Below the pieces are notes generated by a model. That model saw only the letters and a list, made by a program, of their open reading frames with translations, was not told where the DNA came from and made no database searches. A DNA stretch of 64,000 nucleotides, taken from assembly GCF_037975245.1 (NCBI RefSeq), contig NC_092562.1, positions 31,560,554 to 31,624,553 on the forward strand, read 5' to 3'. This stretch comes from Apostichopus japonicus (taxonomy: Eukaryota > Echinodermata > Holothuroidea > Aspidochirotida > Stichopodidae). This document shows, in pieces, positions 14,481-63,511 of this stretch. Positions within the stretch are counted from its first letter, which is position 1. Each line of letters starts with the position of its first letter. The translations under genes and the position numbers were made by a program.

Positions 14481-15384
14481 AGAAACGTGGTTTAAAATAG
14501 AGTCACGACATGTGTAGGCAATGGACAGGTTTAAACAGAAGCTTAACTCAAGTCCAGGCGTCAAATAGTTGCAATTTGTCATTAATTTTATGAAATATGT
14601 TAAAATGCTGACATCTTTCCAAGTGTACAAGTTGACAATTTTATGAAAAATCTTGGAATGACAACTTATTACATCTCTTCATTTCAACAATTTTCTGCAA
14701 AATATTAAGTTACACTTGAGGTTTTACCAAGTCTGTAGTTTAAAAATTTTCTGAAATTGAACAAAAATGATGAGATGGAAACTGATTATTGTACATTTCC
14801 TGATCTCATAAATTTTATGAAAAAGGTTAACGAAGTAGAGTTTATTCTTACATTTATCTTGATGGCACTTTAAGCTGCCATAGGTCACAGATGTTAAAAC
14901 CTTGAGGATGAAACTGAAAGTTGTTTTTTTATGAAGGTCTCCTCTAAGTTTTAGGTCTATTATGCACATCAAAGCAGGGTGTTGAAAGTAATATACTGCC
15001 ATGTCATTTGATTGCCTTGAAAAGGTGAGGATAAAAACTAGTAAGAGTCCTAACAAATCCTGTGTCAACTCAACATATACTATGTGTGGTCAATAGTGTA
15101 CAGTGGCCTACATCTCAAAACTGTAGCTGTTACCATTATTTCATTACATTCTGTGTTTTGTATAGTGTCTAGTTGTAACTATTTTGGTTGCTTTCTGTAT
15201 AGATTCATCATAACTTTACATTCTTCATGCAAATCATTTGATAAATGATAATACACGATGTCCAGTTTGAAATCATCCATTGGACTGGAAAACACTTCAA
15301 AGTACAGTATCCTCCATTTTGACTGAACTGCAAACTTTTTTAAAATTCAATATTTGTTTTTAATTGCTAACTTTATTTTTGCAG

Positions 15385-22912: not shown

Positions 22913-23043
22913 GTTCAATGTCTCAGCATGCCAATGAGTTTGGTGTATTCATATCATTGTGCATCTAATTGTAACATTTAATTAGTTGCATAGCATTTAT
23001 GCTAGTGGAAAGTAACATGTTATCATTGTACCTATCTTCACAG

Positions 23044-30700: not shown

Positions 30701-31764
30701 GGTAGCAATCCTCCATCACTATGGAGATATTGAAATGCCAGAATATAAAGAAATAAACATAGGATCCACTCATAGGGGAGTTTTTGCTTGCCCAAAGCTG
30801 GTGTTCTATTCACCAGATCTGTACATCCTTCTGACTCATATTGGTCATAGTTTACTATTTTGCTGTTTTGACAATAGAAACATTAAATTAAAAAACCCTT
30901 TAAAATTTGCCCAGCAGTGTAGTGCCTTGTTGTAGGTGAATGTTCATTGAGAGTTACGGTTGTATACTGAAGTAATATGGTGGCCTGGGATCAATTGTGG
31001 TGCAATTAATAACTGAACAAATTTCAAGTTTAATATTTCTAGCTTTTTGCAATATGTTAATAACATGACTTGTCTGTTTATTATATGTATTGTATATACC
31101 GTGCTAAAATAAATTGATAAAAATGTTGACAATTTCCTTAGAAGTACAGTATATTCGTTAATAATGGCGCCATTTCGATAGCTACTGTTTTATGGCCACA
31201 GTCAACTTAAAAGAATGGACTCCATATGATATTAACTGGCATGACCTCAGATGAGTTACAAATAGTAACCTGGAGTGCATATATCACAAATATAATTTAT
31301 AAAGGTTTGTCTGAGTAATTGCCTATATCCTTCATCGTTTCAAAAGTTTCCATTGAACTCAAACACTTAAGAGTTGTTCTGATGTAGTAAACCATCATGA
31401 AATACTGTATTACTGGATAGGGAATAGTTAGATGTAGCTTTGCAAAGGTTCACTGTTTGTGAACAGCACAGTGAGAGACAGGGAGAGACAGGCGTTGGCT
31501 TAACTTTCTGCTGTAATACGGTATAATCATGATGTTCCAAAAATGTGTCATAGTAGGTACCTTGCCATAAAAGGTCTCTATTACAGAAGCAAGGTCTAAT
31601 ATTTTCAGAGCACTACTTTGCAGTACGAATAACATAAGAGAAATTAAAAAATATGACATTTGAATGTAGTAATGTCCTATCTAGTCTCTGATATGCATTA
31701 GTGTTCTATTTATAACATACAGTAGCATTAATTTTGTTTGTATTTTCTTCTTTTCTATTTTCAG
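27761..31764. other. Spacer and probable 5' region of gene 4, exons unresolved
   Basis: About 4 kb with no exon I can support. The segment 28402-28643 has an ATG-led open frame followed by GTAGGG and could be a first exon, but its phase does not fit the exon at 31765. The rest is AT-rich with scattered AGGCCTA motifs. Confidence 0.35.
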
Positions 31765-34700
31765 TTAGAGCTGAATTTATCCGTCAAAGTGCTGGATCGT
31801 AAAGCACCTTACCTCTTCGTTTGGTGGAACGAAAACGATGGTTGTGCGGATGGCTTCTTGGTGACTTGTGAATGTCAGAGCTTTCATCTAGGAAAGGATA
31901 AACCTGCTCCCAAACAAGCGCCTACAGATAAATCGTCAGCGTGGTACGGTAGCCTTGCAAAAGCCATGCAAAATGCCGAGATCGTAACAGTTCATCCACA
32001 GCGGAGTGGGACAAGTCTGTGTAAGTTGAGTGACGTGGTGGAGGTACAGAGTAACAAGGCGAAAAAGAAAAGAAAAGGAAAGCAATGCAAGAAAAAGACA
32101 GAGAAGAAAGAAACACAGGAAGATGAAAAGAAGGAAGAGGAAGAAGATGAAGAAAATGCTGCCTCGAATGGTCACCATGGTGATGATGAAAATGATGGAA
32201 ATGAGAAAGAAGAGGTGACTGAAGAGACGAGTGAAGAAGAAATAAAGAACCCAATAGATGTTGACATCTTCCAGAGTGACATGGAGATGGGCAAGGAGAT
32301 TAGAGACTTTGATATCAGCATTGGCATGGAGACAAATGTAACCACAACTATAGACTATGATCAGGGTGAAGAAGGAGAAGACATCTCAGACCCAAGAAAT
32401 GAAGAGACCATCGCAGCTGTTCCCATATCAATCGGCTCTATGTCTGATGCTATCCAAGATATGCTCTCACCGTCTGCTCTGGTTACTGAAGAAACAGTTC
32501 CAACCATTTCGATTTCAGCTCCCGCAGATGAACTTGACCTAGATAGTATTAATCCCAAAGCCCAAGAGAAAATTGCTCAACTTAAGGCTCTGAAAGACCA
32601 GCAATACTTGGAAAGATACAATAGAAAAGTCAAGAATCGCAAGATAACTTTCATGCTCTGTGAAATATGTGGAGCTGCTGTTTGCAACAAGAGTTTCAAG
32701 AGACATATAGAAGCTGTGCACTATAAAGGACAGAGAGAAGGCCTATTTGCCTGCAGCATTTGCAACAAAAAATTCCTGTACCCGACTAACGTTAAGAGAC
32801 ATGAACTGATTCACGCTAATGCCAGATTCCACTGTCGTTACTGTGAGAATACCTATGCTCAAGAAGGAGCATGCAGGGTAGGTAATATCCAAATGTATGA
32901 GGACTTGAAGGGTCCTTGACAAATAAGCACACTGCTGGAAAGAAAGATAGGCCAGTGGTATATGTATATATAAATACACTTAGTAGACACACAGCTGTAT
33001 ACTAGATACATGTTGGTTGTGTTTGTACATACACTTAGAAGACACACAGCTGTATACTAGATACATGTAGGCTGTGTTTTTACATACACTTAGTAGACAG
33101 TAGACACACAGCTGTATATTAGATACATGTAGGTTGTGTTTGTACATACACCTAGTAGACACACAGCTGTATACTAGATACATGTAGGCTGTGTTTGTAC
33201 ATACACTTAGTAGACACACAGCTGTATACTAGATACATGTAGGCTGTGTTTTTACATACACTTAGTAGACAGTAGACACACAGCTGTATATTAGATACAT
33301 GTAGGTTGTGTTTGTACATACACTTAGTAGACACACAGCTGTATACTAGATACATGTAGGCTGTGTTTTTACATACACTTAGTAGACAGTAGACACACAG
33401 CTGTATATTAGATACATGTAGGTTGTGTTTGTACATACACCTAGTAGACACACAGCTGTATACTAGATACATGTTGGTTGTGTTTGTACATACACTTAGT
33501 AGACACACAGCTGTATACTAGATACATGTAGGCTGTGTTTTTACATACACTTAGTAGACAGTAGACACACAGCTGTATATTAGATACATGTAGGTTGTGT
33601 TTGTACATACACTTAGTAGACACACAGCTGTATACTAGATACATGTAGGTTGTGTTTGTACATACACTTAGTAGACACACAGCTGTATATTAGATACATG
33701 TAGGTTGTGTTTGTACATACACTTAGTAGACACACAGCTGTATACTAGATACATGTAGGTTGTGTTTGTACATACACTTAGTAGACACACAGCTGTATAC
33801 TAGATACATGTAGGTTGTGTTTGTACATACACTTAGTAGACACACAGCTGTATACTAGATACATGTAGGCTGTGTTTCTACATACACTTAGTAGACACAC
33901 AGCTGTATACTAGATACATGTAGGCTGTGTTTGTACATACACTTAGTAGACACACAGCTGTATACTAGATACATGTAGGTTGTGTTTGTACATACACTTA
34001 GTAGACACACAGCTGTATACTAGATACATGTAGGCTGTGTTTGTACATACACTTAGTAGACACACAGCTGTATACTAGATACATGTAGGTTGTGTTTGTA
34101 CATACACTTAGTAGACACACAGCTGTATACTAGATACATGTAGGCTGTGTTTGTACATACACTTAGTAGACACACAGCTGTATACTAGATACATGTAGGC
34201 TGTGTTTGTACATACACTTAGTAGACACACAGCTGTATACTAGATACATGTAGGTTGTGTTTGTACATACACTTAGTAGACACACAGCTGTATACTAGAT
34301 ACATGTAGGCTGTGTTTGTACATACACTTAGTAGACACACAGCTGTATACTAGATACATGTAGGTTGTGTTTGTACATACACTTAGTAGACACACAGCTG
34401 TATACTAGATACATGTAGGTTGTGTTTGTACATACACTTAGTAGACACACAGCTGTATACTAGATACATGTAGGCTGTGTTTGTACATACACCTAGTAGA
34501 CACACAGCTGTATACTAGATACATGTAGGCTGTGTTTGTACATACACTTAGTAGACACACAGCTGTATACTAGATACATGTAGGTTGTGTTTGTACATAC
34601 ACTTAGTAGACACACAGCTGTATACTAGATACATGTAGGTTGTGTTTGTACATACACTTAGTAGACACACAGCTGTATACTAGATACATGTAGGTTGTGT

Positions 34701-37700
34701 TTGTACATACACTTAGTAGACACACAGCTGTATACTAGATACATGTAGGCTGTGTTTGTACATACACCTAGTAGACAGTAGACACACAGCTGTATATTAG
34801 ATACATGTAGGCTGTGTTTTTACATACACTTAGTAGACACACAGCTGTATACTAGATACATGTAGGCTGTGTTTGTACATACACCTAGTAGACAGTAGAC
34901 ACACAGCTGTATATTAGATACATGTAGGCTGTGTTTTTACATACACTTAGTAGACAGTAGACACACAGCTGTATACTAGATACATGTAGGCTGTGTTTTT
35001 ACATACACTTAGTAGACACACAGCTGTATACTAGATACATGTAGGCTGTGTTTTTACATACACTTAGTAGACACACAGCTGTATACTAGATACATGTAGG
35101 TTGTGTTTTTACATACACTTAGTAGACACACAGCTGTATACTAGATACATGTAGGCTGTGTTTTTACATACACTTAGTAGACACACAGCTGTATACTAGA
35201 TACATGTAGGCTGTGTTTTTACATACACTTAGTAGACACACAGCTGTATACTAGATACATGTAGGTTGTGTTTTTACATACACTTAGTAGACACACAGCT
35301 GTATACTAGATACATGTAGGCTGTGTTTTTACATACACTTAGTAGACACACAGCTGTATACTAGATACATGTAGGCTGTGTTTTTACATACACTTAGTAG
35401 ACACACAGCTGTATACTAGATACATGTAGGCTGTGTTTTTACATACACTTAGTAGACACACAGCTGTATACTAGATACATGTAGGTTGTGTTTGTACATA
35501 CACTTAGTAGACACACAGCTGTATACTAGATACATGTAGGCTGTGTTTTTACATACACTTAGTAGACACACAGCTGTATACTAGATACATGTAGGCTGTG
35601 TTTTTACATACACTTAGTAGACACACAGCTGTATACTAGATACATGTAGGCTGTGTTTTTACATACACTTAGTAGACACACAGCTGTATACTAGATACAT
35701 GTAGGTTGTGTTTGTACATACACTTAGTAGACACACAGCTGTATACTAGATACATGTAGGCTGTGTTTTTACATACACTTAGTAGACACACAGCTGTATA
35801 CTAGATACATGTAGGCTGTGTTTTTACATACACTTAGTAGACACACATCTGTATACTAGATACATGTAGGTTGTGTTTGTACATACACTTAGTAGACACA
35901 CAGCTGTATACTAGATACATGTAGGCTGTGTTTTTACATACACTTAGTAGACACACAGCTGTATACTAGATACATGTAGGCTGTGTTTTTACATACACTT
36001 AGTAGACACACAGCTGTATACTAGATACATGTAGGCTGTGTTTTTACATACACTTAGTAGACACACAGCTGTATACTAGATACATGTAGGTTGTGTTTGT
36101 ACATACACTTAGTAGACACACAGCTGTATATTAGATACATGTAGGCTGTGTTTTTACATACACTTAGTAGACACACAGCTGTATACTAGATACATGTAGG
36201 CTGTGTTTTTACATACACTTAGTAGACACACAGCTGTATACTAGATACATGTAGGCTGTGTTTTTACATACACTTAGTAGACACACAGCTGTATACTAGA
36301 TACATGTAGGCTGTGTTTTTACATACACGTAGTAGATACACAGCTGTATACTAGATACATGTAGGCTGTGTTTGTACATACACCTAGTAGACACACAGCT
36401 GTATACTAGATACATGTAGGCTGTGTTTGTACATACACCTAGTAGACACACAGCTGTATACTAGATACATGTAGGCTGTGTTTGTACATACACCTAGTAG
36501 ACACACAGCTGTATACTAGATACATGTAGGTTGTGTTTGTACATACACTTAGTAGACACACAGCTGTATACTAGATACATGTAGGCTGTGTTTTTACATA
36601 CACTTAGTAGACACACAGCTGTATACTAGATACATGTAGGCTGTGTTTTTACATACACCTAGTAGACACACAGCTGTATACTAGATACATGTAGGCTGTG
36701 TTTTTACATACACCTAGTAGACACACAGCTGTATACTAGATACATGTAGGCTGTGTTTGTACATACACCTAGTAGACACACAGCTGTATACTAGATACAT
36801 GTAGGTTGTGTTTGTACATACACTTAGTAGACACACAGCTGTATACTAGATACATGTAGGCTGTGTTTTTACATACACTTAGTAGACACACAGCTGTATA
36901 CTAGATACATGTAGGCTGTGTTTTTACATACACCTAGTAGACACACAGCTGTATACTAGATACATGTAGGCTGTGTTTGTACATACACCTAGTAGACACA
37001 CAGCTGTATACTAGATACATGTAGGTTGTGTTTGTACATACACTTAGTAGACACACAGCTGTATACTAGATACATGTAGGCTGTGTTTTTACATACACTT
37101 AGTAGACACACAGCTGTATACTAGATACATGTAGGCTGTGTTTTTACATACACCTAGTAGACACACAGCTGTATACTAGATACATGTAGGCTGTGTTTTT
37201 ACATACACCTAGTAGACACACAGCTGTATACTAGATACATGTAGGCTGTGTTTGTACATACACCTAGTAGACACACAGCTGTATACTAGATACATGTAGG
37301 TTGTGTTTGTACATACACTTAGTAGACACACAGCTGTATACTAGATACATGTAGGCTGTGTTTTTACATACACTTAGTAGACACACAGCTGTATACTAGA
37401 TACATGTAGGCTGTGTTTTTACATACACCTAGTAGACACACAGCTGTATACTAGATACATGTAGGCTGTGTTTGTACATACACCTAGTAGACACACAGCT
37501 GTATACTAGATACATGTAGGTTGTGTTTGTACATACACTTAGTAGACACACAGCTGTATACTAGATACATGTAGGCTGTGTTTTTACATACACCTAGTAG
37601 ACACACAGCTGTATACTAGATACATGTAGGCTGTGTTTTTACATACACCTAGTAGACACACAGCTGTATACTAGATACATGTAGGCTGTGTTTGTACATA

Positions 37701-40458
37701 CACCTAGTAGACACACAGCTGTATACTAGATACATGTAGGCTGTGTTTGTACATACACCTAGTAGACACACAGCTGTATACTAGATACATGTAGGTTGTG
37801 TTTGTACATACACTTAGTAGACACACAGCTGTATACTAGATACATGTAGGCTGTGTTTTTACATACACTTAGTAGACACACAGCTGTATACTAGATACAT
37901 GTAGGCTGTGTTTTTACATACACCTAGTAGACACACAGCTGTATACTAGATACATGTAGGTTGTGTTTGTACATACACTTAGTAGACACACAGCTGTATA
38001 CTAGATACATGTAGGCTGTGTTTGTACATACACCTAGTAGACACACAGCTGTATACTAGATACATGTAGGCTGTGTTTTTACATACACTTAGTAGACACA
38101 CAGCTGTATACTAGATACATGTAGGTTGTGTTGTACATACACTTAGTAGACACACAGCTGTATACTAGATACATGTAGGCTGTGTTTTTACATACACCTA
38201 GTAGACACACAGCTGTATACTAGATACATGTAGGCTGTGTTTGTACATACACCTAGTAGACACACAGCTGTATACTAGATACATGTAGGTTGTGTTTGTA
38301 CATACACTTAGTAGACACACAGCTGTATACTAGATACATGTAGGCTGTGTTTTTACATACACCTAGTAGACACACAGCTGTATACTAGATACATGTAGGC
38401 TGTGTTTGTACATACACCTAGTAGACACACAGCTGTATACTAGATACATGTAGGTTGTGTTTGTACATACACTTAGTAGACACACAGCTGTATACTAGAT
38501 ACATGTAGGCTGTGTTTTTACATACACCTAGTAGACACACAGCTGTATACTAGATACATGTAGGTTATGTTTTGGCTTCATTTCACTTCTGTATACCTAT
38601 GTCATGGTTTTGACCTGCTTTGACATACAATTATGTGTGATTGCAATGACAAATAAATGTAATGGCAAATAAATATAAATTAAATGATAATCAAGCAGCT
38701 TTGCCATGTCACTGTCAAAGATGTAATTTATTGTACATGAAGTTATAAAGTAGTAAATGATACTAAAAAATGAACTAAACACATTCATATTCAGAATTAA
38801 AATAAAAGTAATATTGATGTGCGGGCAAACCATTCTCATTCTCTGTGTTTGTATTTTATGTCACCATTAATCTTCACGAGCCCATTGTTGTTTTATTGTC
38901 TTTCTTCAGTCTCACGAGAGAAAGTGTCATAGTAGCGAAGATCCGAAGAATGAGGAGGCAAAGATGACCGTTACCAAGATGACAAAACTGACCGCTTGGC
39001 CTCATTATAAGTCTGCGGACAGGGCGACCAAGATCGTTGAATGTCAAATCTGTAAGAAGAAGATGAAGAGGTCTTCGCTGAGACATCACATGGAGACTCA
39101 TAATCCAGAGGGTGTGGCTTGTCCAATCTGTCATAAAGTCTATAGTTCAACGTGCAGCCTCAGGACTCACACACAGACTCACGGGGAGAGGAAGTTCCAT
39201 TGCACGGTATGCGGTAAGAGGTTTCACCAGAGACAAGGCCTAGTAACGCACACTCGTATACATACCAATGAAAAGCCACTCAAGTGTCGTATGTGCGGGG
39301 AAGCATTCTCACGACAGCAGGCTAGGATAAACCATGAAAGACGACACACCGGGGAGAAGCCATACTCATGTACCATCTGTGTGAAAGACTGGAGAGATAG
39401 GACCACGTACCTCCACCATATGAGAAGGAACCACCCGAACGAGTAAGTGAAGAACAATAACCACCATCATCTAAATATGTAATGATAAGTAACAATGGGT
39501 ATGATATAACAACATAAGTGGGTCTTTGAACAATGGGTGTGATATAACAACATAAGTGGGTCTTTGAACAATGGGTGTGATATAACAACATAAGTGGGTC
39601 TTTGAATAATAGGTGTCATATAACAACATAAGTGGGTCTTTGAACAATGTGTGTCACATAACAACATAAGTGGGTCTTTGCACAATGGGTGTGATATAAC
39701 AACATATCTGGGTCTTTGAACAATGGGTGTGATATAAATGGGTCTTTGAACAATGGGTGTGTTATAACAATATAGTGGGTCTTTGAATAATAGGTGTCAT
39801 GTAACATCATAAGTGGGTCTTTGAACAATGGGTGTTATAACAACATAAGTGGGTCTTTGAACAATGGGTGTCATATAACAATATAAGTGGGTCTTTGAAC
39901 AATGTGTGTCACATAACAACATAAGTGGGTCTTTGCACAATGGGTGTGATATAACAACATATCTGGGTCTTTGAACAATGGGTATGATATAAATGGGTCT
40001 TTGAACAATGGGTGTGTTATAACAATATAAGTGGGTCTTTGAACAATGGGTGTGATAAAACAACATTAGTGGGTCTTTGAACAATGGGTGTGATAAAACA
40101 GCATATATAAAGTGGTTTTCTTATGATTTGGGTCGTTGGAAATTTCAGGCAACTTTGTCAACTAAACAACAAGATAGTTAAGTAAACATTGGGTTCATGG
40201 ACCTGTTCAGCTTATCCTATTCAGCTTATCCTATTCAGCTTATCCTATTCAGCTGTGTATTAGACAACCTGATGTGGGCACAACATCCAACAATGCACCC
40301 ACATTTAAAAGTATTGCAGTCTTCACACTGCTTAATACTGCTGAGGCAGTTTATTAAAGGGACAACAAGAAGCTAATATGTGTTTTGCATTTTTCTTTAT
40401 TTGCAGGCCTGTGATGACATTGAAGAAGCAGTACTTAAGAAGCAGAGTGGACCAGTAA
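31765..40458 (+). CDS. C2H2 zinc-finger gene 4 (divergent paralogue)
   Basis: Exons 31765-32877, 38910-39442 and 40407-40458 (TAA 40456-40458) join in frame into 566 codons. The first exon starts in phase 0 after TATTTTCAG. Residues 1-80 are a diverged version of the family N-terminal domain (LNLSVKVLDRKAPYLFVWW, FLVTCECQ). A Lys-rich stretch (KKKRKGKQCKKK) and a Glu-rich stretch (EEEEDEEN) follow. Eight C2H2 fingers span about residues 298-548; the atypical fourth finger of genes 1-3 is absent. Finger 3 is split by the 6-kb first intron (CENTYAQEGACR then SHERKCH), whereas the later finger split by an intron in genes 1-3 is continuous here. The final intron (GA/G then P) is conserved with the family. 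Confidence 0.85.
32970..38565. repeat. Minisatellite of about 100 copies of a 55-bp unit
   Basis: The unit ACACAGCTGTATACTAGATA followed by CATGTAGGYTGTGTTTKTAC and ATACACYTAGTAG recurs every 55 bp for 5.6 kb, with some 62-bp units carrying an extra AGTAGAC. It fills over 90 percent of the intron between exons 32877 and 38910 of gene 4. Three diagnostic variable sites (C/T, G/T, T/C) occur in repeated combinations, showing higher-order units of about four to five monomers in the 36.3-38.5 kb part. Each monomer has ACACAGC and GCTGTGT facing each other around TGTAT-ATACA, so it can form a hairpin. Minus-strand frames here are artefacts. Confidence 0.97.
39495..40105 (+). repeat. Minisatellite, about 38-bp unit, ~16 copies
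   Basis: Unit GTGGGTCTTTGAACAATGGG followed by TGTGATATAACAACATAA, with deletions in some copies. It begins about 50 bp after the donor at 39442 in the last intron of gene 4. A block from about 39640 to 39780 recurs at 39880-40040, indicating a secondary duplication. Confidence 0.93.
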
Positions 40459-46131: not shown

Positions 46132-46720
46132 CCGTCTTGTGATATTTTACGTATGGTACGGTTTTCCTCTACCTCATAGCTTCCTGTTCTTGTGTTATTT
46201 TACGTATGGTACAGTTTTCCTCTACCTCATAGCTTCCTGGTCTTGTGATATTTTACGTATGGTACAGTTTTCCTCTACCTCATAGCTTCCTGTTCTTGTG
46301 TTATTTTACGTATGGTACGGTTTTCCTCTACCTCATAGCTTCCTGTTCTTGTGTTATTTTACGTATGGTACAGTTTTCCTCTACCTCATAGCTTCCTGGT
46401 CTTGTGATATTTTACGTATGGTACAGTTTTCCTCTACCTCATAGCTTCCTGGTCTTGTGATATTTTACGTATGGTACAGTTTTCCTCTACCTCATAGCTT
46501 CCTGGTCTTGTGATATTTTACGTATGGTACAGTTTTCCTCTACCTCATAGCTTCCTGGTCTTGTGTTATTTTACGTATGGTACAGTTTTCCTCTACCTCA
46601 TAGCTTCCTGGTCTTGTGTTATTTTACGTATGGTACAGTTTTCCTCTACCTCATAGCTTCCTGGTCTTGTGTTATTTTACGTATGGTACAGTTTTCCTCT
46701 ACCTCATAGCTTCCTGGTCA
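46132..46720 (-). repeat. 53-bp minisatellite containing the GLDC stop-codon region, 11 copies
   Basis: The phrase TTTTACGTATGG occurs at 46145 and then every 53 bp to 46675. On the minus strand each unit includes ACCAGGAAGCTATGAGGTAG, which in the first transcribed copy is the last coding sequence and stop of GLDC (TAG at 46699-46701). The other ten copies therefore lie in the 3' UTR. Units differ at a few positions only (A/G, G/T), so the array is young or homogenised. Confidence 0.95.
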
Positions 46721-49700
46721 TCTACATAATCCCCGTAAGAGTCCATACTTGGGCAAGTACAAATCAGGTTTTTATCCCCGTATAAGTCATCGACGCGACC
46801 CACCGACGGCCAAAACTTGCTCTCAGGCTTCACAAAGGGCTATGGAAATACATAGAATATGTAATTTAACAGTCAAGGACATGTAGGTTTGTGAAGCTCA
46901 TGTTATAATCTACAGCAATACATAATACAGACGCTTGCTCGGATGATAGCATCATGGTAACTTAATAAGGACCATTTCCTTGCTGGACTGACAATTCCTA
47001 ACTATGTTAATAGGTATGCATGATCTTATCATTAACAACCAAAACATGAAACTCTTGGACGTAGGTTTCCAAGGAACAAGAACTCTGCTACTCAATGAAG
47101 TATTTGTTCCAGACAATATTTTCAGCATTCATTAATATCTATACATACTGATTTAACCATGATAAGTATAACACAGTCTGGTCTATGAACCATGATAGCT
47201 TCCCATTACTGCTCATCATCACTGACAAACTAGGATACAAGCTTCAGAGGGATGAGGGAAGGGAGAAATCAACAGAGATCCAGTTTACACTTTTGCTTGG
47301 TATGTTGGTCTTTAAATCTATGAATGATTTGCAGTGTGACAAGAAGTATTTATGTTAAACTAATTATGACTGTTTAGTTTCATTCCAGAATCTCTATCTT
47401 AATTATTCATGTAAGACTCACCAATGGGAATGCAGCTTGTTCTCTACTGTAGGCCTTCTCCCATTTACTGGACATAACCACTTGAGCAGTGTGGGGAGCA
47501 TTCTTCAGGGGACTGTCTTTGACATCAACAAGGCCATCTTGAATATCCTGGATCTCATCTCGAACATCTGATCAGAGAAGAAACAGATCAACAATCACCA
47601 GTTAGAGAATCCCTGGAAACACCACCCATCTTAGAATGTCACAAATCCATGATAATATGGCAACACCCATTTTAGAATGGAATGCCACAGTTCTAGTACA
47701 TACATATGTTAATCATCCTTAGCAACACCCATCTAGTATCAAATGACACAGCTCTAAGGTCACATAATAATCACCCTTAGCAACACCCATCTAGTATCAA
47801 ATGATACAGATCTAAGGTCACATAAAAATCACCCTTAGCAACACCCATCTAGGATCAATTGACACAGCTCTAAGGTCACACTGCAATCACCCTTAGCAAC
47901 ACAAATCTAGAAACAAATGACACAGCTCTAATGTCACATAATTATCACCCTTAGCAACACCAATCTTGAATCAAATGATACAACTCTAAGGTCACAGGCA
48001 ACCACCCTTGGCAACACCAATCTAGAATCAAATGACACAGCTCTAAGGTCACATGGAGATCACCCTTAGTAATACCCATCTAGAATCAAATGATACAACT
48101 CTAAGGTCACTTGGCAATCACCTTTAGCAACACCCTTCTCAGAATCGATACAAAACTACAATTGGATCATATGACACTTAAGTCCCCCCCAATTGTTATA
48201 ACAAACATGCTATCTTCAATTGCATTTGGCAATGCTGTCTGATTTACCTTACCCCCCTCCCCTCCGCCTCCCCACACACACCTATCCTTCCTTAGTTTTC
48301 ATACCCAGATGAACCTTAAGACTCCTAGCCCCCAACCTCTGTAATTCGGCCAAAATGTTTAACAAGGAGTGTTAGCTCAGTGGTTATAACGCCGGTGCCT
48401 TCCAATCATAAGGTCCCTGGTTCGAGTCACTCCAAGATTCGATGTATGTCGTCCAGTTACAGAGTTGTTGACAATTGACAATTCATAATCATGGACATTA
48501 AATGTGAATCTAACAGACTGACTTTGGTCAGCTTGCGTTTTTGATAAGCCAATTCGAGGCTTCTTCACGAGTTCCTGCTAGCAGGAGGATCTAAAATACA
48601 TAAAAACATACATACAAACAATGTCATATTCATTCTGCATTCATTAAATATATCCGATAATAGCTAAGTCATCATTTTAATTACTATTCAATTACTTACA
48701 CAGAAGTGCATCACAAAGTCTGTCTAACTCATCCTTGTTTTCACTTTCTGTAGGCTCAATCATTATCCCAGTAGAGACCGGAAAGGAGACAGTTGGAGCA
48801 TGGAAGCCTAAATAGAGAGAATACAAGATTATACACTGTCAGCAATCTATTAACTGACCAATCAATGAGGTGGCATTTATCTAACTGACCAATGAATGAG
48901 GTGGCAGTTATCTAACTGACCAATGAATGAGGTGGCAGTTATTTAACTGACCAATGAGGTGGTTGGAGCATGGAAGCCTAAATAGAGAGAATACAAGATT
49001 ATACACTGTCAGCAATCTATTAACTGACCAATGAATGAGGTGGCAGTGATCTAACTGACCAATGAATGAGGTGGCAGTTATTTAACTGACCAATGAGGTG
49101 GTTGGAGCATGGAAGCCTAAATAGAGAGAATACAAGATTATACACTGTCAGCAATCTATTAACTGACCAATGAATGAGGTGGCAGTGATCTAACTGACCA
49201 ATGAATGAGGTGGCAGTTATTTAACTGACCAATGAGGTGGTTGGAGCATGGAAGCCTAAATAGAGAGAATACAAGATTATACACTGTCAGCAATCTATTA
49301 ACTGACCGATGAATGAGGTGGCAGTGATCTAACTGACCAATGAATGAGGTGGCAGTTATCTAACTGACCAATGAGGTGGTTGGAGCATGGAAGCCTAAAA
49401 AGAGAGAATACAAGATTATACACTGTCAGCTATCTATTAACTAACCAATCAATGACGCGACAGTTATCTAACTGACCAATGAATGAGATTGCAGTTATCT
49501 AACGCACCAATGAGGTGGTTGGAGCATGGAAGCCTATATAGAGAGAATACAAGATTATATACTGTCAGCTATCTATTTACTGACCAATGAATGAGGTGGC
49601 AGTTATCTAACTGACCAATGAATGAGATTGCAGTTATCTAACGCACCAATGAGGTGGTTGGAGCATGGAAGCCTTAATAGAGAGAATACAAGATATTACA

Positions 49701-52700
49701 CATCTGAACTCTTGCAATGTGTAACCTATGTGTACATCTATATTTATGAATGCTGATCAAAATTTGAAGAATTTATGAATTTACGGTCAATATTTAGAGG
49801 TAGGCCTATGTATTATGGGAAAATTACTTGAAAATGCATCTGAGACTCACATGATGTGAATTACAGCACTTGAGGAAGTTTCCTTCATTGTTAACATTTG
49901 TAATCACCAAAAGAAATTTCGTTGGCATAACCTAGCCAACAACATGCTGAAGAGTCGTGATTTGGAGCTAGATTTGGCAACATTAAATCAGCATTTGACT
50001 TTTTTGAGAAACACATTCAGAGAGTTGCTAGCCACAATTCTAGCAGGGCATACTTAGCATTGCTTTAGCAAACTGATGAAGATTTCTGAAAATGTGCTGT
50101 ACTATATATAGTGCCATATTAGGTCCCAAGACTATACACATTAATACAGTGCAGTATTAGGTCCCAAGACTATACACATTAATACAGTGCCACATTAGGT
50201 CCCAAGACTATATATGTTATACAAAACATCACATTGCTCAATTCTCTAGCAACAGAAATCATGCCTTAATGAATCTGTAAAATTAACAGCTTGTAGCTGA
50301 ATGGATACCACACGTATTCTGCGACATAATGCATCATATGCACTATGAAATCAACAACTTACCAAAATCCTGCAGCCTTTTAGCGATGTCACCAGGTTCA
50401 ACACCAATTTTCTTAAATTCTTTGAGTTCGAGGATAAATTCATGAGCAACAAAACCTAGTGATTTGAAAAAGCAGATAATTTTGTAATAGTGTCTGTCCA
50501 GTCCATGTTTACTTAGCTAGTGATCCCATCGTATTACAATGAGACAACCTTCATGGATTAATCTGAAGTTTTAGTTTTACTATTCGACTGTAACCATAGT
50601 GACAGGGTACAACTCATGTTTTGTGGGATAAGTTGCTGTCTTTATCTTAAAGAAAACGAAACACTCTGGGTGTCAACATCCTTTGAACAATGTTTTCTCA
50701 TCATGTCTCAGAAGTGTGTATGCCATGGCATACCATGATACTACACTGGAAGATACTTCATAGCAACAATAAGGAGAAACTGTGGAATTGTTGATGTAGT
50801 GACAAATCATACTATCTTACTGAACTTATCAACAAAAATAACATTGCAGTATTTTACAATTATGAGTGGCTGGATATCTGATCCACACAGACCAGAGGTC
50901 AGAACAATGTAGGCTTGACTGTATCAGGATATGTTTTGGCTACATGCATATTTCAAGTATTGCCCCCACCCCCCCCCCCGCCCTTCATGATTAAAAGCCA
51001 AATAATGGTTCTGATGCCCAATGTTGTATGTCTAATTGTTTAGAACGGATACCCCTCAAAGAAATAACTTGGAGGAAAAAAACCCTTGAGGAATAGTTTT
51101 TGGAATTTTTTATCAATTTTCAAACTGATGACTTGTATGAACAAGCACACTTTGTACTATGTGTACACTGTGTGTACTATGTGTACACAGTGTGTACACT
51201 GTGTGTAAACTATGTGCACACTGTGTTCTATGTCTCACCATTCTTTCCAGTAAACAGGATTCTGTATGAGTTTTCTAGCCTATTAGCCATATAATTAGCA
51301 TTTAAAATGGCCACCTCTGTAGCCTGTCTCAGTCCACGGGGTCCCATCATCTGTAGACAAAGCAAGAAAATATCTCAAATAATAAACAACGGTGGACATA
51401 ACTAACAACAAAGGTAATTACAAACAGGAACCACATAACTAACAACAAAGTAATCACAAACAGGAAACACATAACTAACAACAAAGTAATCACAAACAGG
51501 AACCACATAACTAACAACAAAGTAATCACAAACAGGAACCACATAACTAACAACAAAGTAATCACAAACAGGAACCACACAACTAACAATGTAATCACAA
51601 ACAGGAACCACATAACTAACAACAAAGTAATCACAAACAGGAACCACATAACTAACAACAAAGGTAATTACAAACAGGAACCACATAACTAACAACAATG
51701 TAATCACAAACAGGAAACAACATAACTAACAACAAAGTAATCACAATCAGGAACCACATAACTAACAACAAAGTAATCACAAACAGGAAACACATAACTA
51801 ACAACAATGTAATCACAAACAGGAAACACATAACTAACAACAAAGTAATCACAAACAGGAACCACATAACTAACAACAAAGTAATCACAAACAGGAACAA
51901 CATAACTAACAACAAAGTAATCACAAACAGGAACAACATAACTAACAACAATGTAATCACAAACAGGAACACATAACTAACAACAATGTAATCACAAACA
52001 GGAAACACATAACTAACAACAATGTTATCACAAACAGGAAACAACAAACAATGTAATCACAAACAGGAACCACATAATTAACAACAATATAATCACAAAA
52101 TAATGCAATTAAGCCAAACAAATGTAGCAGAAATGTCAGAAAAGTAAGTAAGAGCAACTTACTTTGATGTAGGTCCATGTGATAGGCAAGATAGAGCTAG
52201 ATCCCCATGGTGCAGCACTAACAGCGCCCCCATTTCTACCTTCACCAACTCCAACTAATGGATGACTTGGAAGGTGTGGAATGAGATGCTTCTTGCTGTC
52301 AAAAGAATAAGTCATAAAACCACCATAAACACATAAAACTATAAATTAATATTAAATTTAATCGAGTAGTGCAAACAGAGGTAATTATAGAATGTCAACA
52401 CAATAAATCATATTTGCACATAAATGCACTTTGAACGGAATTTAAGAAAAACCCGGTAAGCTGCAGTACAGCCATGCTAACTAAAATCCCGGAATATCTG
52501 GCAGCAATCTGATATCAATCTGTGGATCTGTGAACTCCAGTAAGAATTCATTTTCAGTTTTTGATTGTATTATTCCTCAAGGTCTTAGAATACTTTGAAG
52601 TTTTGGTAACTGTTAGCAAGTTATAGAACATTTAGACCTGAAGTTACACTCATGACATTTTAGACTAGGTAAAGGGCGCCACCATTATTTACCATGCACA

Positions 52701-55700: not shown

Positions 55701-58700
55701 ATTACAACATGTAATGCTTTTGAGGAAAGAAGGTTTGGTACACCACTTACTATAAGTTCAACTGTAGCATTGAGTTTCATGGTACAGGAACCCAATGGAA
55801 TCATTGAGTGTGCAAGAGAGAGGTCTTTGTTCTCCAGTTGCTTCATATATCGAAGGAGAGCCGTTTCTGAATGGTGGCTGGAAAATTAAAATCACATCAT
55901 GATAAACCATGCATGATACTTAAATAAGGTTGCAAGGCTGTGTACATTTTAGTGGTCATATCTAACACTATTTTAGTGTACAATAATTACTGGATACATA
56001 GTATGTGCTTCCTTTATACTGTCAATGTTATTTAAATTCCTCTGTCTCAATTGTGACAAATGTTTCAATATGTTCATGTCTGTCATTGTTTATATTCTGT
56101 ATACTGTACATATAAGTCAAACTGTTGACACCCGGCAGGCTTGTTTTATAGGATTCTGTAACATGTTTTCGTCTGATACTTAGATGGCTTGTTGTCTAAG
56201 ATTCTGTAACATGTTTTTGTCTGATACTTAGATGGCAAGTTAACGTTTAATGGATGAAATCAGCTTAGCTGTCTCCCGAAATCTTACCTATGAAATACAG
56301 GATGACTGAGATAAGAGGTCTTCCTCTTAAATGATGAGTTACTGATACTTTTCAGGTTTCCTTTGCTTTGCAAATCACCTGCAATCTCCTCCTAGTTAGA
56401 AATGAAAACAAACACGGTTTATATTAAGCACAATGGATACTGTTTAAACAAGCTGTTGAAGGTTTGAGAAATAAACTATAACTCCCCGCTCCCCCTACTC
56501 ACATCTACCCATCTAAGCAGAATGGATACTGTTTAAACAAGCTGTTGAAGGTTTGAGAAATAAACTATAACTTCCCCTCCCCCTACTCACACCTACCCAT
56601 TTAAGCAGAATGGATACTGTTTAAACAAGCTGTTGTAGGCTTAAGAAAGAAAAAGTGTAACTCCTCCTCCCCCCATACCTCCTCCTCCCACCTACCCAAT
56701 TCCCAGAATTGCTAAAACATTGAAGAAATTCTCTGGTTGTATATCGCTATAAATGTCCTGTAATTGTAGCAGTTTTTCATACAAAGGCAAAGATTCTCTG
56801 AATTAGTCAAAGAGTTTTGTTAAGACTAAAACTAGTGTTATGCTGCTGATAAACTCTGGCATAGCCCAACATATCTAGTATAACATTACCAGCAGTTCAT
56901 GACAATTATAAATGACAATACATACTAAGACTAAACAAATACTAAGCAACAAAAATAAACTTGTTCAGCAAACCAGAAAGAACAATGAAAACATAAAGGC
57001 AGTCTTTACCGCTGATGATTTGCACTCAAAAATCCTCAATAGGTCGTTGAGGTCTGCCTCTTCCACTGTTTCATCCAGAGATATCCCAAACTGTAAAAGG
57101 ACAACACTGATTGGATGAAGCTGGTCATGTGACACAAAACATTGTATATGAAGCAGTAGATGCTGTCAACAGTCATGAACTTGTCAGAGCTAATTTGCAA
57201 TTGTTATTCAATATGGATGAGCTATAGTAATGCATGAACAAAGTATCAAAACATCATGGATGACATCACAACGTTGCATCATGAATATGGATGAGTAATA
57301 ACACAACTGTAATCATGAATATGGATGAGTAGTAACACAACTGTAATCATGAATATGGATAGGTAGTAACACAACTGTAATCATGAATATGGACGATGTG
57401 GTTTGCAGTCAGAAATTAAAAACAGGGATAAGATTGAATCATGAAAGTAAAAGAACTTCAACTGAAGCCAAGATAACTTACGCTTCCATCATCAAATTGC
57501 CGAAGGTTTATTTTATGATTATCAGCCTGCTGCTTGATGCCTGCCTTAAGACCATTACACTGAACTCTGAGAGTATCAAAGAATGTGTCTGTCATCATCA
57601 GTTCATGGCCAGCCTGCTTCAGACCTGAGAAAATAATACACCAGATTCTGCATATATCATCATGAATATAATAAAACCACATGTAATAAATTATTCAACT
57701 TTATCATTGATGAAAACTTGCAAAACAAACAACCTAACATGTGATTCAGGTGGGTGAGGTCAGGGTGCTAGGGCTTGAAGATTTTACTAGACAGACACAC
57801 CAGATATATATTCAGTTAATTACCAGTGCCATTATTTAATAACACTAAGAAAGACGTTATCAAATTACATCTAGTACACATCTTTCTGTATGGAAACCTT
57901 GAAGTACCATCAAAATGTTAATATCTTTTATGTACATATATGGGAAGCAATATTCAACACAATAATGAAATGCTTAAACAAGTAATCAGCAAACAAACTG
58001 ACAAATTCCATACTCTTCACAGGTGAGAAATTCATGGTTTACAAACCATGTAACCCACATTTTCCCTGTGCATTTAGACTGCAGCATGACAAATCAATTG
58101 CTTATCACATATTGTGAAACTTGTAAAACACAACTTTGGCAAAACAACTTTTAAATATCAACGTATAAATCATACACATAAACCAGCGCTGCACTGGTTC
58201 GAATCCCGTCCTAGCCGTAAATTTCTTTGCTTTTGTTTTGCTTCTCAAAAGAACAACAAAGTGTACAGTTTTTCTGCATATAATGTCAGCATATTGCAGA
58301 CAATTCTTATCACATTTACATCGACATAAACCTTTTGATTGCACCTCAACGTTTCCATACTTTGTGACCTTGACACTGATTACTCAACCTTACCTTCAGC
58401 TAATATGAGGGTAGAATTATGGATTCTATGTGCTATGTGTTGCAGTCCCTGTGGTCCATGGTAGATACAGTACAGCACACTCATATTGGCCAGCAGAGCC
58501 TAGGAACAAGATAGGAAACATAGAAAAGCTGTTAAGCCTTGAGTAAGAGAGACCTACATGCAACCACAAACAGGTTTCAACTGATGTTCTCACCCCCTTA
58601 CCCCTGCCCCACCCCCAATTAATCCAATCATAATTAATCCTCTCCTCGCTCTCTCCATGCCTGTTCCCACCCCCCCTCATTACCCCTGCCCACCCACTCC

Positions 58701-61700
58701 ATTAATCAAATCATATTTATTCCTCTCCTCCCTCTCTCCATGCCTGGTCGCCCCACCTCCCCATTACCCCTGCCCCACCCCCTCCATTAATCCAATCATA
58801 ATTATTCCTCTCCTCCCTCTCTCAATACCTGGTCCCCCCACCTCCCCATTACCCCTGCCCCACCCCCTCCATTAATCCAATCATAATTATTCCTCTCCGC
58901 CCTCTCTCCATGCCTGTTCCCCCTCCCCATTATCCCTTACCCACCCCTCCATTAATCCAATATTATTCCTCTCCTCACTCTCTCAATACCTGGTCCCCCC
59001 ACCTCCCATTACCCCTGCCCCACCCCCTCCATTAATCCAATCATAATTATGCCTCTCCTCCCTCTCTCCATGCCTGTCCTCCCCTAAATGATTCACTTAA
59101 TATCACAACTAATATTGTGTTACTTTACACAATGCGTGATTCTATAAGCTGCTGTGCTGTGACTTACACTGGATGACAGCATTTCAATTTCTCTTGTACT
59201 TTATCTTAGTTTATCTTTTAAATATGATGATAAAGCCCAGCGATATTGACAAACAATTGATTATCAGGACATCAAAGCATAAGCAGCAAATACAGGCCTA
59301 GGTTGTAAAGATAACTGCTTAGTGTACATAATTATTGTGTAAACATAAGACAAACTAGACAATGGCTTTACATTGCGCAAGTGGTGCTAGGCACCATTTA
59401 AATGGCTTACAATATTCTCCTGTTTTAGACACGATAGAGAAAGCTCATTAGTAAGCTTAGCAATAGCTAAAGACAATTCATCAGTCCTCAGGGCTCACCT
59501 TATGATTAGCAATGTTCACATGTTAATTTGAAACCTCTCACATATTTCTACCACCCCACCTCTCCCTTCCCATCCACAGTTCATCCCCTTCTCTTTTCAC
59601 AGTTATCAAAGCTGTGTAGCCTTTTCTGACTCGGGTTACCAGACCTATGGTGGTATCTTCTGGAAGCCTTCTTCCCCATCCCATAATTTACCTGAGCTCT
59701 ACCCCATCCCATAATTTACCTGAGCCTTCTCCCCCATCCAATAATTTACCTGAGCTCTACCCCATCCTATAATTTACCTGAGCTCTACCCCATCCTATAA
59801 TTTACCTGAGCCTTCTCCCCCATCCCATAATTTACCTGAGCCTTCTCCCCCATCCCATAATTTACCTGAGCCTTCTTCCCCATCCCATAATTTACCTGAG
59901 CCTTCTTCCCCATCCCATAATTTACCTGAGCCTTCTCCCCCATCCCATAATTTACCTGAGCCTTCTTCCCCATCCCATAATTTACCTGAGCCTTCTTCCC
60001 CATCCCATAATTTACCTGAGCCTTCTCCCCCATCCCATAATTTACCTGAGCCTTCTCCCCCATCCCATAATTTACCTGAGCCTTCTCCCCCATCCCATAA
60101 TTTACCTGAGCTCTACCCCATCCTATAATTTACCTGAGCTCTACCCCATCCCATAATTTACCTGAGCCTTCTCCCCCATCCCATAATTTACCTGAGCTCT
60201 ACCCCATCCTATAATTTACCTGAGCTCTACCCCATCCCATAATTTACCTGAGCCTTCTCCCCCATCCCATAATTTACCTGAGCCTTCTCCCCCATCCCAT
60301 AATTTACCTGAGCTTTCTTCCCCATCCCATAATTTACCTGAGCCTTCTTCCCCATCCCATAATTTACCTGAGCCTTCTCCCCCATCCCATAATTTACCTG
60401 AGCCTTCTTCCCCATCCCATAATTTACCTGAGCCTTCTTCCCCATCCCATAATTTACCTGAGCCTTCTTCCCCATCCCATAATTTACCTGAGCCTTCTCC
60501 CCCATCCCATAATTTACCTGAGCCTTCTCCCCCATCCCATAATTTACCTGAGCCTTCTCCCCCATCCCATAATTTACCTGAGCTCTACCCCATCCTATAA
60601 TTTACCTGAGCTCTACCCCATCCCATAATTTACCTGAGCCTTCTCCCCCATCCCATAATTTACCTGAGCCTTCTCCCCCATCCCATAATTTACCTGAGCC
60701 TTCTTCCCCATCCCATAATTTACCTGAGCCTTCTTCCCCATCCCATAATTTACCTGAGCCTTCTTCCCCATCCCATAATTTACCTGAGCCTTCTCCCCCA
60801 TCCCATAATTTACCTGAGCCTTCTCCCCCATCCCATAATTTACCTGAGCCTTCTCCCCCATCCCATAATTTACCTGAGCTCTACCCCATCCTATAATTTA
60901 CCTGAGCTCTACCCCATCCCATAATTTACCTGAGCCTTCTCCCCCATCCCATAATTTACCTGAGCCTTCTTCCCCATCCCATAATTTACCTGAGCCTTCT
61001 CCCCCATCCCATAATTTACCTGAGCCTTCTCCCCCATCCCATAATTTACCTGAGCCTTCTTCCCCATCCCATAATTTACCTGAGCCTTCTCCCCCATCCC
61101 ATAATTTACCTGAGCCTTCTCCCCCATCCCATAATTTACCTGAGCCTTCTTCCCCATCCCATAATTTACCTGAGCCTTCTCCCCCATCCCATAATTTACC
61201 TGAGCCTTCTCCCCCATCCCATAATTTACCTGAGCCTTCTTCCCCATCCCATAATTTACCTGAGCCTTCTTCCCCATCCCATAATTTACCTGAGCCTTCT
61301 CCCCCATCCCATAATTTACCTGAGCCTTCTTCCCCATCCCATAATTTACCTGAGCCTTCTCCCCCATCCCATAATTTACCTGAGCCTTCTCCCCCATCCC
61401 ATAATTTACCTGAGCCTTCTTCCCCATCCCATAATTTACCTGAGCCTTCTCCCCCATCCCATAATTTACCTGAGCCCTCTCCCCCATCCCATAATTTACC
61501 TGAGCTTTCTTCCCCATCCCATAATTTACCTGGGCCTTCTTCCCCATCCCATAATTTACCTGAGCCTTCTCCCCCATCCCATAATTTACCTGAGCCTTCT
61601 TCCCCATCCCATAATTTACCTGAGCCTTCTTCCCCATCCCATAATTTACCTGAGCCTTCTCCCCCATCCCATAATTTACCTGAGCCTTCTCCCCCATCCC

Positions 61701-61866
61701 ATAATTTTCCTGAGCCTTCTACCCCATCCCATAATTTACCTGAGCCTTCTCCCCCATCCCATAATTTACCTGAGCTGTGCAGATGTTGCTGGTAGCTTTC
61801 TGTCTTCTGATGTGTTGTTCTCTAGCTTGTAAGGACAATCTGTAAGCCTCATTACCAGAAGAATCC
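46699..61866 (-). CDS. GLDC: Glycine dehydrogenase (decarboxylating), P-protein, partial
   Basis: Sixteen minus-strand exons join in frame, 5' to 3': 61866-61770, 58499-58394, 57624-57482, 57090-57010, 56391-56288, 55877-55751, 54986-54844, 54139-54064, 53717-53592, 52981-52719, 52295-52163, 51350-51239, 50455-50363, 48807-48700, 47567-47422, 46839-46699. They encode about 665 residues, starting at a phase-2 junction; roughly the first third of the usual ~1000-residue protein lies beyond the window. The enzyme decarboxylates glycine and passes the aminomethyl group to lipoylated H-protein in mitochondria. Diagnostic motifs are [66 protein letters not shown], the PLP-lysine motif [16 protein letters not shown] (Lys codon 52772-52774), [24 protein letters not shown] and [11 protein letters not shown]. 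All exons look intact. Confidence 0.97.
47600..48150. repeat. Minisatellite, about 60-bp unit, about nine copies, GLDC intron
   Basis: Unit ATGACACAGCTCTAAGGTCA followed by CATAATAATCACCCTTAGCA and ACACCCATCTAGTATCAA, degenerate. It starts about 30 bp from the acceptor of the exon ending at 47567. Confidence 0.9.
48366..48620 (+). mobile_element. tRNA-derived SINE, full length
   Basis: The head has an A-box-like TAGCTCAGTGGTTATAACGC and a B-box GGTTCGAGTCAC at tRNA spacing, followed by a 150-bp body and an ATACAT/ACATACAA tail. It lies in the GLDC intron between exons at 48700 and 47567, in the opposite orientation to the gene. A body copy occurs at 45649-45845. Confidence 0.85.
48790..49685 (-). 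repeat. 139-bp minisatellite carrying copies of a GLDC splice acceptor
   Basis: GGTTGGAGCATGGAAGCC occurs at 48961, 49100, 49239, 49378, 49517 and 49656, an exact 139-bp period. Each copy reproduces, on the minus strand, the end of the intron (CTCTCTATTTAG) and the first 16 nt of the exon starting at 48807 (GCTTCCATGCTCCAAC). Inside each unit is a 31-bp subrepeat, ACTGACCAATGAATGAGGTG followed by GCAGTTATCTA. Six decoy acceptors precede the real one in the transcript. Confidence 0.95.
50111..50212 (+). repeat. Three-copy ~41-bp tandem repeat, GLDC intron
   Basis: TTAGGTCCCAAGACTATACA and the following CATTAATACAGTGC recur three times. Confidence 0.9.
51150..51235 (+). repeat. Degenerate TGTGTAC simple repeat
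   Basis: Interspersed GTGTACACTGTGTGTACTAT motifs lie immediately next to the donor of the exon ending at 51239. Partly palindromic (GTGTACAC). Confidence 0.8.
51395..52095 (-). repeat. 36-bp minisatellite, about 19 copies, GLDC intron
   Basis: Unit CACATAACTAACAACAAAGT followed by AATCACAAACAGGAAC, with 1-8 bp indels. The array nearly fills the intron between exons at 52163 and 51350, ending about 45 bp from the acceptor. Long minus-strand frames are repeat artefacts. Confidence 0.95.
53155..53210 (+). repeat. Short ~19-bp tandem repeat, three copies
   Basis: ACAATAACACTTAACACTT is repeated about three times in a GLDC intron. Confidence 0.85.
56153..56236 (+). repeat. Two-copy 48-bp duplication, GLDC intron
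   Basis: ATTCTGTAACATGTTTTCGT and the following CTGATACTTAGATGGC start at 56153 and again at 56201. Confidence 0.85.
56432..56700 (+). repeat. Three-copy ~89-bp tandem repeat, GLDC intron
   Basis: AATGGATACTGTTTAAACAA starts at 56432, 56521 and 56609, each followed by a CCCCTCCCCCTACTCAC-like tract. Confidence 0.9.
57278..57395 (+). repeat. 34-bp tandem repeat, 3.5 copies, GLDC intron
   Basis: ATCATGAATATGGATGAGTA followed by GTAACACAACTGTA, starting at 57278, 57312, 57346 and 57380. Confidence 0.92.
58165..58245 (+). mobile_element. Possible SINE fragment with a tRNA B-box
   Basis: GCACTGGTTCGAATCCCGTC resembles the T-arm and 3' end of a tRNA. No A-box or acceptor stem is visible upstream, so it is not an intact tRNA gene. 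It lies in the GLDC intron 57625-58393. Confidence 0.4.
58575..59085 (+). repeat. C-rich ~85-bp minisatellite, about six copies, GLDC intron
   Basis: Unit ATTAATCCAATCATAATTAT followed by TCCTCTCCTCCCTCTCTC and CCCCACCTCCCCATTACC. It begins about 75 bp from the acceptor of the exon ending at 58499. Confidence 0.93.
59655..61769 (-). repeat. 30-bp minisatellite carrying copies of a GLDC splice donor, about 70 copies
   Basis: On the minus strand each unit reads GGCTCAG/GTAAATTATG followed by GGATGGGGGAGAA. The first unit begins exactly at the donor of exon 61866-61770 (GCTCAG then GTAAAT). Interspersed 28-bp variants (GAGCTCTACCCCATCC on the plus strand) occur in pairs near 59760, 60110, 60200, 60585 and 60880, dividing the array into higher-order blocks of about 300-390 bp. 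Because 30 is divisible by three, the minus strand shows long frames of a ten-residue repeat ([10 protein letters not shown]); I read these as intron, not protein. Confidence 0.96.
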
Positions 61867-62250: not shown

Positions 62251-63511
62251 TTAAAAGGATTGTCTGGTGGCCCAAAGAAGTTACCTTAAAAAATAGTAAA
62301 TAATTTTCCAAACATGTTGTCAAAGTATGAGAACGCTAATGTTGCGTTTGACAGAGAAACGATTTTTTAATCGTTATGGATAGACATTTCAAATATGATT
62401 TGAACAGTACAATACGTGACGTCAGCTCTGCCATAGCAGATTGCGTCATAACCCACCCTCCGCACAGTACCTATACGGTAATCACAACAAAAACAGCGTT
62501 TGTATACAGATAAATTTCTTCCTTAATTTCCGGTGAAATTTCTTAAAAAATTAGATATGTTTTCAAAAACTCCTTAAGCCGCCATGTACTTGAGCGGTGG
62601 TTCCGTGGTCTTTGTGTAACACAAGGTAAATTTTAACAGCAGACTCTGAGTTGTTCAGGCTATACATCGCGCTATCCAGCTCCAACGCGAAAAATGTTCG
62701 CATGTAGGCTGTACTCAAACGTTGACAATCGGACAGTTCTGCGAAGCCTAAGCTTCTCAGTGCTATATTCTGCTCTGACAACGATTCGATCAATTTCTTC
62801 AATAATTTCCGGTGAAATTTCTTGTAAATTAGATATGATTTAAAAAACTCCTTAAGCCACAATATATGTAGTAGATCGGTGGTTTCGTGGTCTTTGTGTT
62901 ACACAAGATAAGTTTTAACAGCAGGCTCTTCATTGTTTATACATCGCGGTATCCAGCTCCAGCGCGAAGAATGTTCGCGTGTATAGGCTACTCTAACGTT
63001 TACAATCGGACAGTTCTGCGATGACATCGATCCCGCCAAGTTTCATCTTTCGGTTTAACGAATACTTTACAAGTTTCCTTTACTGTTAATTTGATCCGTG
63101 AATTTTATTTCAGCGATTTCGAAGAACAGTTAATGAACTGTGGTTTGAGTGTGAGTGTACTATGTGTAAGGCTATACAAGTACACCAACTGAGCATCGTA
63201 GTATATACGTTCGCGAGTATGTACGTTATATATATGAGGCAATTCAATGTGCTTACACGTGAGTTATTTTGCTGCGGAATTGGGAGTGCTAACTTCAAGT
63301 CGCCTGTTTTGCCTATCTGCAAGCACTACGTCAATCACCATATTGAAGCGTTCGAACAAACGGTACTTTTGGTGAGAAACTGGTGAATTTGAAAACCAGA
63401 TTTCTACAAGAAGAAAACGTCGAATGGGGACAATTTTTACATGGTTAGAAAGAGAAAAATAATAACTACAAGGACAATGTATCAAAATCTTCCACCAGAC
63501 AATTCCTTTAA
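62251..63511. mobile_element. Candidate TTAA-flanked DNA element, 1.26 kb
   Basis: TTAA at 62251-62254 is followed by AAGGATTGTCTGGTGG. At the other end, AGGAATTGTCTGGTGG (reverse complement) precedes TTAA at 63508-63511. The ends match at 14 of 16 positions, as terminal inverted repeats with a TTAA target duplication, the target used by piggyBac-type elements. The ends lack the CC start common in that family and no transposase is visible, so the superfamily is uncertain. It contains a 279-bp tandem duplication. Confidence 0.55.
62514..63030. repeat. Two-copy tandem duplication, 279-bp period
   Basis: TTCCGGTGAAATTTCTT occurs at 62528 and 62807, each followed by similar sequence ending at GGACAGTTCTGCGA. 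Copies differ at perhaps 15 percent of sites. Confidence 0.85.

Follow-up and report, generated by a model that had tools for sequence, protein, structure and literature searches.

A minisatellite repeating the splice donor of a GLDC exon 70 times in an intron of the sea cucumber Apostichopus japonicus

The window analysed here, a stretch of 64,000 bases of the Apostichopus japonicus genome (contig NC_092562.1; C2:31560554-31624553), holds the 3′ part of the glycine decarboxylase gene GLDC, in which one exon runs directly into a tandem array that repeats the end of that exon together with the beginning of its intron. Probably, this donor array belongs with the intronic minisatellites that have been described in lancelets as "mirages", born by tandem duplication across the exon-intron border and spliced mostly at the true donor. 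The anatomy of the repeat units, the conservation of the exon bases that they contain and the course of the reading frame through the first units carry this reading, and the distribution of arrays in the rest of the gene bears on how the repeat came to lie where it does.

The donor array and its origin

The GLDC gene lies on the minus strand, and 16 exons were modelled from 61866 down to the stop codon at 46699. AG is found at 16/16 acceptors and GT at 15/15 donors, and when the modelled exons are joined, their reading frame is unbroken and stays open for 665 residues to the stop. An earlier note on this DNA had named the gene as GLDC, and this is borne out by homology, as the translated pieces match the GLDC chain 6i33_A (E value 8.7e-110) as well as other solved glycine dehydrogenases. 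The exon 61866-61770 ends in ACAGCTCAG and its intron begins with GTAAATTATGGGATGGGGGAGAAG, which places the array directly at the junction GCTCAG/GTAAAT; the same junction had been given in the earlier note, and a direct check of the sequence agrees with it. On the other side of this exon, upstream, a 277 bp unit is present in 1.8 copies with 83% matches (62509-63021).

Tandem Repeats Finder (TRF) describes the array at 59665-61775 as having a period of 30, with 71.1 copies and 95% matches. When cut at the junction, it yields 70 complete units, in line with the figure of about 70 put forward before, of which 59 are 30 bp and 11 are 28 bp long; the unit length of 30 bp, a multiple of three, that had been claimed therefore stands for the former and not for the latter. 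The complete units are of ten kinds, the two commonest being represented 32 and 20 times, and the commonest unit is GTAAATTATGGGATGGGGGAGAAGGCTCAG. Each unit consists of the last 6 exon bases and the intron start (~24 intron bases). The exon bases GCTCAG recur in all 70 complete units, with the single exception of one that has GCCCAG. CAG/GTAAAT is found at 70 of the 71 junctions when the true one is included, and hence in 69 of the 70 copies; the sole broken junction, which follows unit 2, is CAGGAAAAT. Every unit had been proposed as a potential 5′ splice site, which holds for all copies but that one. The array thus overlaps the border, carries exon bases with it and keeps AG/GT in many copies, as mirages do. 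Two adjacent blocks of ten units inside the array are identical (Table 1), which suggests recent internal duplication or turnover.

Two other explanations of the array were considered and set aside. A search of the 671.6 Mb, 35-contig assembly gave 29 array matches, all of them inside the donor array, which argues against a dispersed element within the limits of a search in which only the top candidates are scored and very frequent words are passed over, which leaves room for other copies. A role for G-quadruplexes was also rejected, with 0 matches to a four-run G3 motif (loops 1-7) in 59650-61790 and a fold of 61560-61790 that is the same with and without G-quadruplexes allowed. Over the window, neither ARAGORN nor Rfam, at its gathering thresholds, gave a hit.

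The same gene carries two sister arrays (Table 1). One is a 3′ mirage, in which the acceptor of exon 14 and the first bases of that exon have been copied. Six acceptor copies (at 49672, 49533, 49394, 49255, 49116 and 48977) each show 0 or 1 mismatch in 24; the AG is kept in 6/6, an in-frame stop is reached in 6/6, and 5/6 retain an upstream CTGAC, which we take to be a branch-point-like motif. The other starts within the final codons of GLDC (QEAMR-stop) and carries copies of them on into the 3′ untranslated region.

With respect to the origin of the donor array, the exon most likely seeded the repeat. The bases GCTCAG encode Ala-Gln, and the corresponding residues are TAQ in 6i33 and 4lgl (presumably the human and a cyanobacterial chain, respectively) and TSQ in 9uz6. 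Since the Ala-Gln codons are kept in solved GLDC chains, as would be expected under coding constraint, the exon is probably older and the repeat would have copied it; the conservation in 6i33 and 4lgl thus supports the order of events favoured in the earlier note. In the mechanism that we envisage, a short tandem duplication would have spanned the border, taking in 6 exon bases and ~24 intron bases, after which slippage or unequal exchange would have carried it to 70 units, in a stretch of an echinoderm chromosome that is rich in arrays. The repeat may have come up to the very edge of the exon because intronic arrays are tolerated up to, and not into, coding sequence.

A tandem-duplication model of intron gain, with AGGT as its core, offers a different history, in which the intron itself was created by such a duplication. 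This was proposed for mirages in the lancelet globin genes (PMC3087553), and the unit of the GLDC array does contain AG/GT. It is nevertheless extremely unlikely here, as the acceptor end of the intron lies ~1.2 kb beyond the array and is without array sequence, the 24-mer around 58499 having 0 local copies.

Reading frame and donor choice

Over -6..+18, the first copy does not differ from the true donor. A U1 pairing of -8.3 kcal/mol was computed for the true donor and for four intact copies, and the remaining intact copies share the same 11 bases. By this measure, the true donor ranks sixth in strength among the 15 GLDC donors, whose values span -5.5 to -11.0. In terms of the reading frame, the true donor (donor 0) gives normal GLDC and the first copy (donor 1) gives ten extra residues in frame, without a stop; only these two donors lead to a stop-free product. 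At least one downstream donor therefore keeps the frame, as would be expected of a donor minisatellite of the type of the human gene IFI6, and the first copy alone does so. An open product is obtained from 1/69 intact copies, the other 68 lying behind the TAG in unit 2. This agrees with what the earlier note had read from the frame, namely that unit 1 is open, that use of the second donor would add ten residues and that the TAG of unit 2 then closes the frame; all later donors stand behind that codon. The units of 28 bp depart from a multiple of three, yet they all lie a long way beyond the unit 2 stop.

Splicing probably takes place chiefly at the true border. The spliceosome would use the donor that is joined to the authentic exon, with exon definition and transcription order presumably favouring it, and the copies would be lost when the intron is excised. 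If the first copy were used now and then, ten residues would be added, and use of later copies would introduce a premature stop, probably followed by mRNA decay. Lancelet mirages are indeed reported not to interfere with regular splicing, according to passages of two papers (PMC3087553, PMC3902484). Three considerations weigh against this view. Two downstream repeat donors are reported to be in use in human IFI6 (PMC4526556), the AG/GT signals of mirages could serve as cryptic sites (PMC3087553), and, because the intact copies match the true donor over the U1-pairing region, that region does not explain the choice of donor. Given that IFI6 is reported to use repeat donors, a low-level GLDC form with ten additional residues is possible.

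According to another proposal, the array would serve as a functional source of GLDC variants, in that the first copy would be used appreciably and would add its ten residues in the way of the IFI6 protein variants. The identity of the first copy with the true donor, the frame that it keeps without a stop and the IFI6 precedent (PMC4526556) are in its favour, but the insert would fall inside a stretch that distant relatives of this protein conserve (TAQALLANM here and in 6i33, TAQVLLAVM in 4lgl and TSQVLLANI in 9uz6) and all but one of the intact copies fail to give an open product, so that we consider it unlikely. It is very unlikely that the array acts as a dial, with leaky use of the stop-containing donors lowering productive GLDC mRNA in proportion to array length. 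Such a role would fit the position of the 68 intact copies behind the unit 2 TAG, and the exon 14 acceptor array is alike in that 6/6 copies run into an in-frame stop; against it, the lancelet mirages are reported not to disturb splicing (PMC3087553, PMC3902484). Very unlikely, too, is the broader idea that the gene of a central mitochondrial enzyme puts up with, and perhaps makes use of, 69 intact donor copies arranged as a ladder at intervals of 28-30 bases, one giving a ten-residue variant and the rest stop-containing mRNA, such that array length would tune output between individuals and expose a rule by which the spliceosome prefers the exon-adjacent site. Finally, each unit could be imagined as a recursive splice site, with acceptor and donor back to back and the intron removed stepwise, as CAG/GTAAAT formally holds both AG and GT in every intact unit. 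With pyrimidines at only 4/20 positions before CAG in the commonest unit, there is no acceptor tract; this candidate was rejected, and we give it practically no chance.

Array density and other features of the assembly

By a test for local copies (24-base window, ≤4 mismatches, within 3 kb), copies were found for 5129/12824 intronic 24-mers in the window part of GLDC (40%), for 5/1630 exonic ones and for 36/690 at borders. Three of 32 GLDC borders (15 donors, 16 acceptors and 1 stop) have local copies, including 1/15 donors and 1/16 acceptors; the count is for GLDC only and does not extend to the borders of the window's zinc-finger genes. Local copies also exist for 1104/5000 random 24-mers of the window, so that membership of a repeat is nothing out of the ordinary there; the distinctive point is that an exon-intron border has been copied 70-fold. 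With 40% of the intronic sequence in arrays, splice sites are not preferentially hit. The splice site is probably not special, and borders are hit less often than introns. That the splice donor described in the earlier note was amplified in any special way is not supported when 1/15 donors is set against 40% of intronic 24-mers; special seeding at splice sites is likewise unneeded, given 3/32 borders against the random and intronic counts. Arrays may instead arise anywhere and be stopped by selection at exons, and the deficit at borders is as expected from that.

The region as a whole is rich in arrays. Counting TRF arrays with a period of ≥10 and ≥2.5 copies, cover amounts to 14020/64000 bases in the window (22%) versus 8995/180000 (5%) in 18 stretches elsewhere, which were picked by hand and are not a random draw. 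In the next two stretches of 10000 bases (to 31644553), 3729 and 4250 bases are covered, giving 22-43% across the region. The contig is 32.56 Mb long, and the window lies ~0.94 Mb short of its end. As a control, three CCT genes chosen for their compactness were inspected, and none of their 19 exon hits has a tandem array over a border. The copy test flagged two CCT exon ends, one of which proved to be a two-copy duplication just inside the intron, and the other a repeat that starts ≤9 bases from the intron start, with a single further copy at another place in the locus. Tblastn located six more 5′ GLDC exons, a subset of the 5′ exons, and these were likewise free of arrays over their borders; the closest array came to within 22 bases of a hit end.

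The coordinates of the features are collected in Table 1.

Table 1 Features of the GLDC locus and of its surroundings in the window
Feature	Position	Strand	Basis
GLDC exon (exon 1 of the window part), 97 nt, 32 residues	61770..61866	-	tblastn match, AG before and GT after, 6i33_A homology
Next GLDC exon, acceptor TTCCTAG/GCTCTG	58394..58499	-	AG/GT borders, gene model
Tandem array, 70 complete units and one partial, overlapping the last 6 exon bases	59665-61775	-	TRF, unit split
Unit 1, free of in-frame stops, ending in a donor copy (61740)	61740..61769	-	Frame and unit split
Unit 2, in-frame TAG; broken donor copy CAGGAAAAT after it	61710..61739	-	Frame and unit split
Pair of identical neighbouring blocks within the array, each of ten units and 296 bp	60368..60959	-	Sequence comparison
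Acceptor array, ~139 bp units, copies of the acceptor and first bases of exon 14	48808..49701 (TRF 48882-49701; extended to the true acceptor before 48807)	-	TRF, copy search
Stop-codon array, 53 bp x 11.1, 10 extra copies of the stop segment	46134..46719	-	TRF, copy search
C2H2 zinc-finger coding stretches	3629-5623, 15364-17418, 22975-25146, 31732-39446	+	Pfam (piece 31732-32919 below the cut-off)

Three of the zinc-finger stretches share an N-terminal segment (GAIQVEVK...) and look like a local gene family. An array is tolerated within coding sequence in one zinc-finger frame, where a 48 bp x 9 repeat (NNIVVDADSIQREELV repeats) lies at 23623-24061 (+). The longest array listed by TRF in the window, 55 bp x 101 at 32974-38572, lies between two zinc-finger coding stretches.

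Elsewhere in the assembly, the mitochondrial contig C35 (16,099 bp) uses code table 9, the echinoderm and flatworm code: in its COX1, AAA stands opposite Asn at 9/9 positions, TGA opposite Trp at 11/11 and AGA opposite Ser at 4/5, with ATA opposite Ile at 12/22 and Met at 2/22. The genes follow one another on one strand as COX1, ND4L, COX2, ATP6, COX3, ND3, ND4, ND5, CYTB, ND1, ND2 and the large rRNA, which is presumably the echinoid and holothuroid order. Code and gene order together fit an echinoderm, most likely a sea urchin or a sea cucumber, and led to the rejection of amphioxus, the host that the literature on mirages would suggest. A small contig, C29 (31,219 bp), contains COX1 pieces split over frames (14745-16086 and 30842-31219) and is perhaps a mitochondrial concatemer or an assembly leftover.

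Relation to known systems

The kind of array described here is already known from mirages and from IFI6, and it apparently now reaches a new phylum with a long ladder of donors. A limited search of the open-licence literature gave no echinoderm or GLDC precedent, which is weak evidence of absence. As far as such limited searches go, border-spanning minisatellites, so far described in lancelets and one human gene, can now be said to occur in an echinoderm as well, and in the form of a donor ladder with 70 copies. Since nothing in the U1-pairing region tells its intact copies from the true donor, the locus constitutes a natural test of the parts that exon context, transcription order or distance play in donor choice. 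If the array has no function, it still illustrates how closely a repeat in an intron can crowd the neighbouring exon.

Mirages are known in the Adh3, TnC, globin and PGBD5 genes of lancelets, with units of 10-72 bp in Adh3 and of 150-160 bp in the globins (passages of PMC3087553 and PMC3902484). The GLDC array resembles them, as these passages portray them, in consisting of tandem copies that span an exon-intron border, at a donor or an acceptor, many of them with AG/GT. It differs in its host, an echinoderm in place of the cephalochordates from which mirages are reported (a reported range that does not strictly define them), in its gene, GLDC, and in its 70 copies at one donor versus the 6 and 3 given for two haplotypes of the globin gene BflGb6. 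A stop-codon version in the same gene also sets GLDC apart from the lancelet cases.

Turri et al. (1995) reportedly described a minisatellite with multiple splice donors in human IFI6 (6-16), which we take to start at the exon-intron border and to keep the frame. As in IFI6 (6-16, G1P3), the minisatellite units of the GLDC array offer splice donors to one transcript; unlike in IFI6, the open stretch ends after one unit, and the unit, the gene and the lineage are unrelated. Use of the repeat donors is reported for IFI6 in a passage of PMC4526556, whereas the repeat donors of the GLDC array are putative.

Passages on the earthworm metallothionein gene describe intronic minisatellites and exon duplications and contain no border-spanning array (PMC12783039), and this gene was not used as a comparison. 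Intron gain by tandem duplication, as exemplified by the potato RdRp gene (PMC4974935), is similar to the present case in that a segment of a gene has been copied in tandem, but there a new intron arises, whereas in GLDC an existing border has been copied inside the intron.

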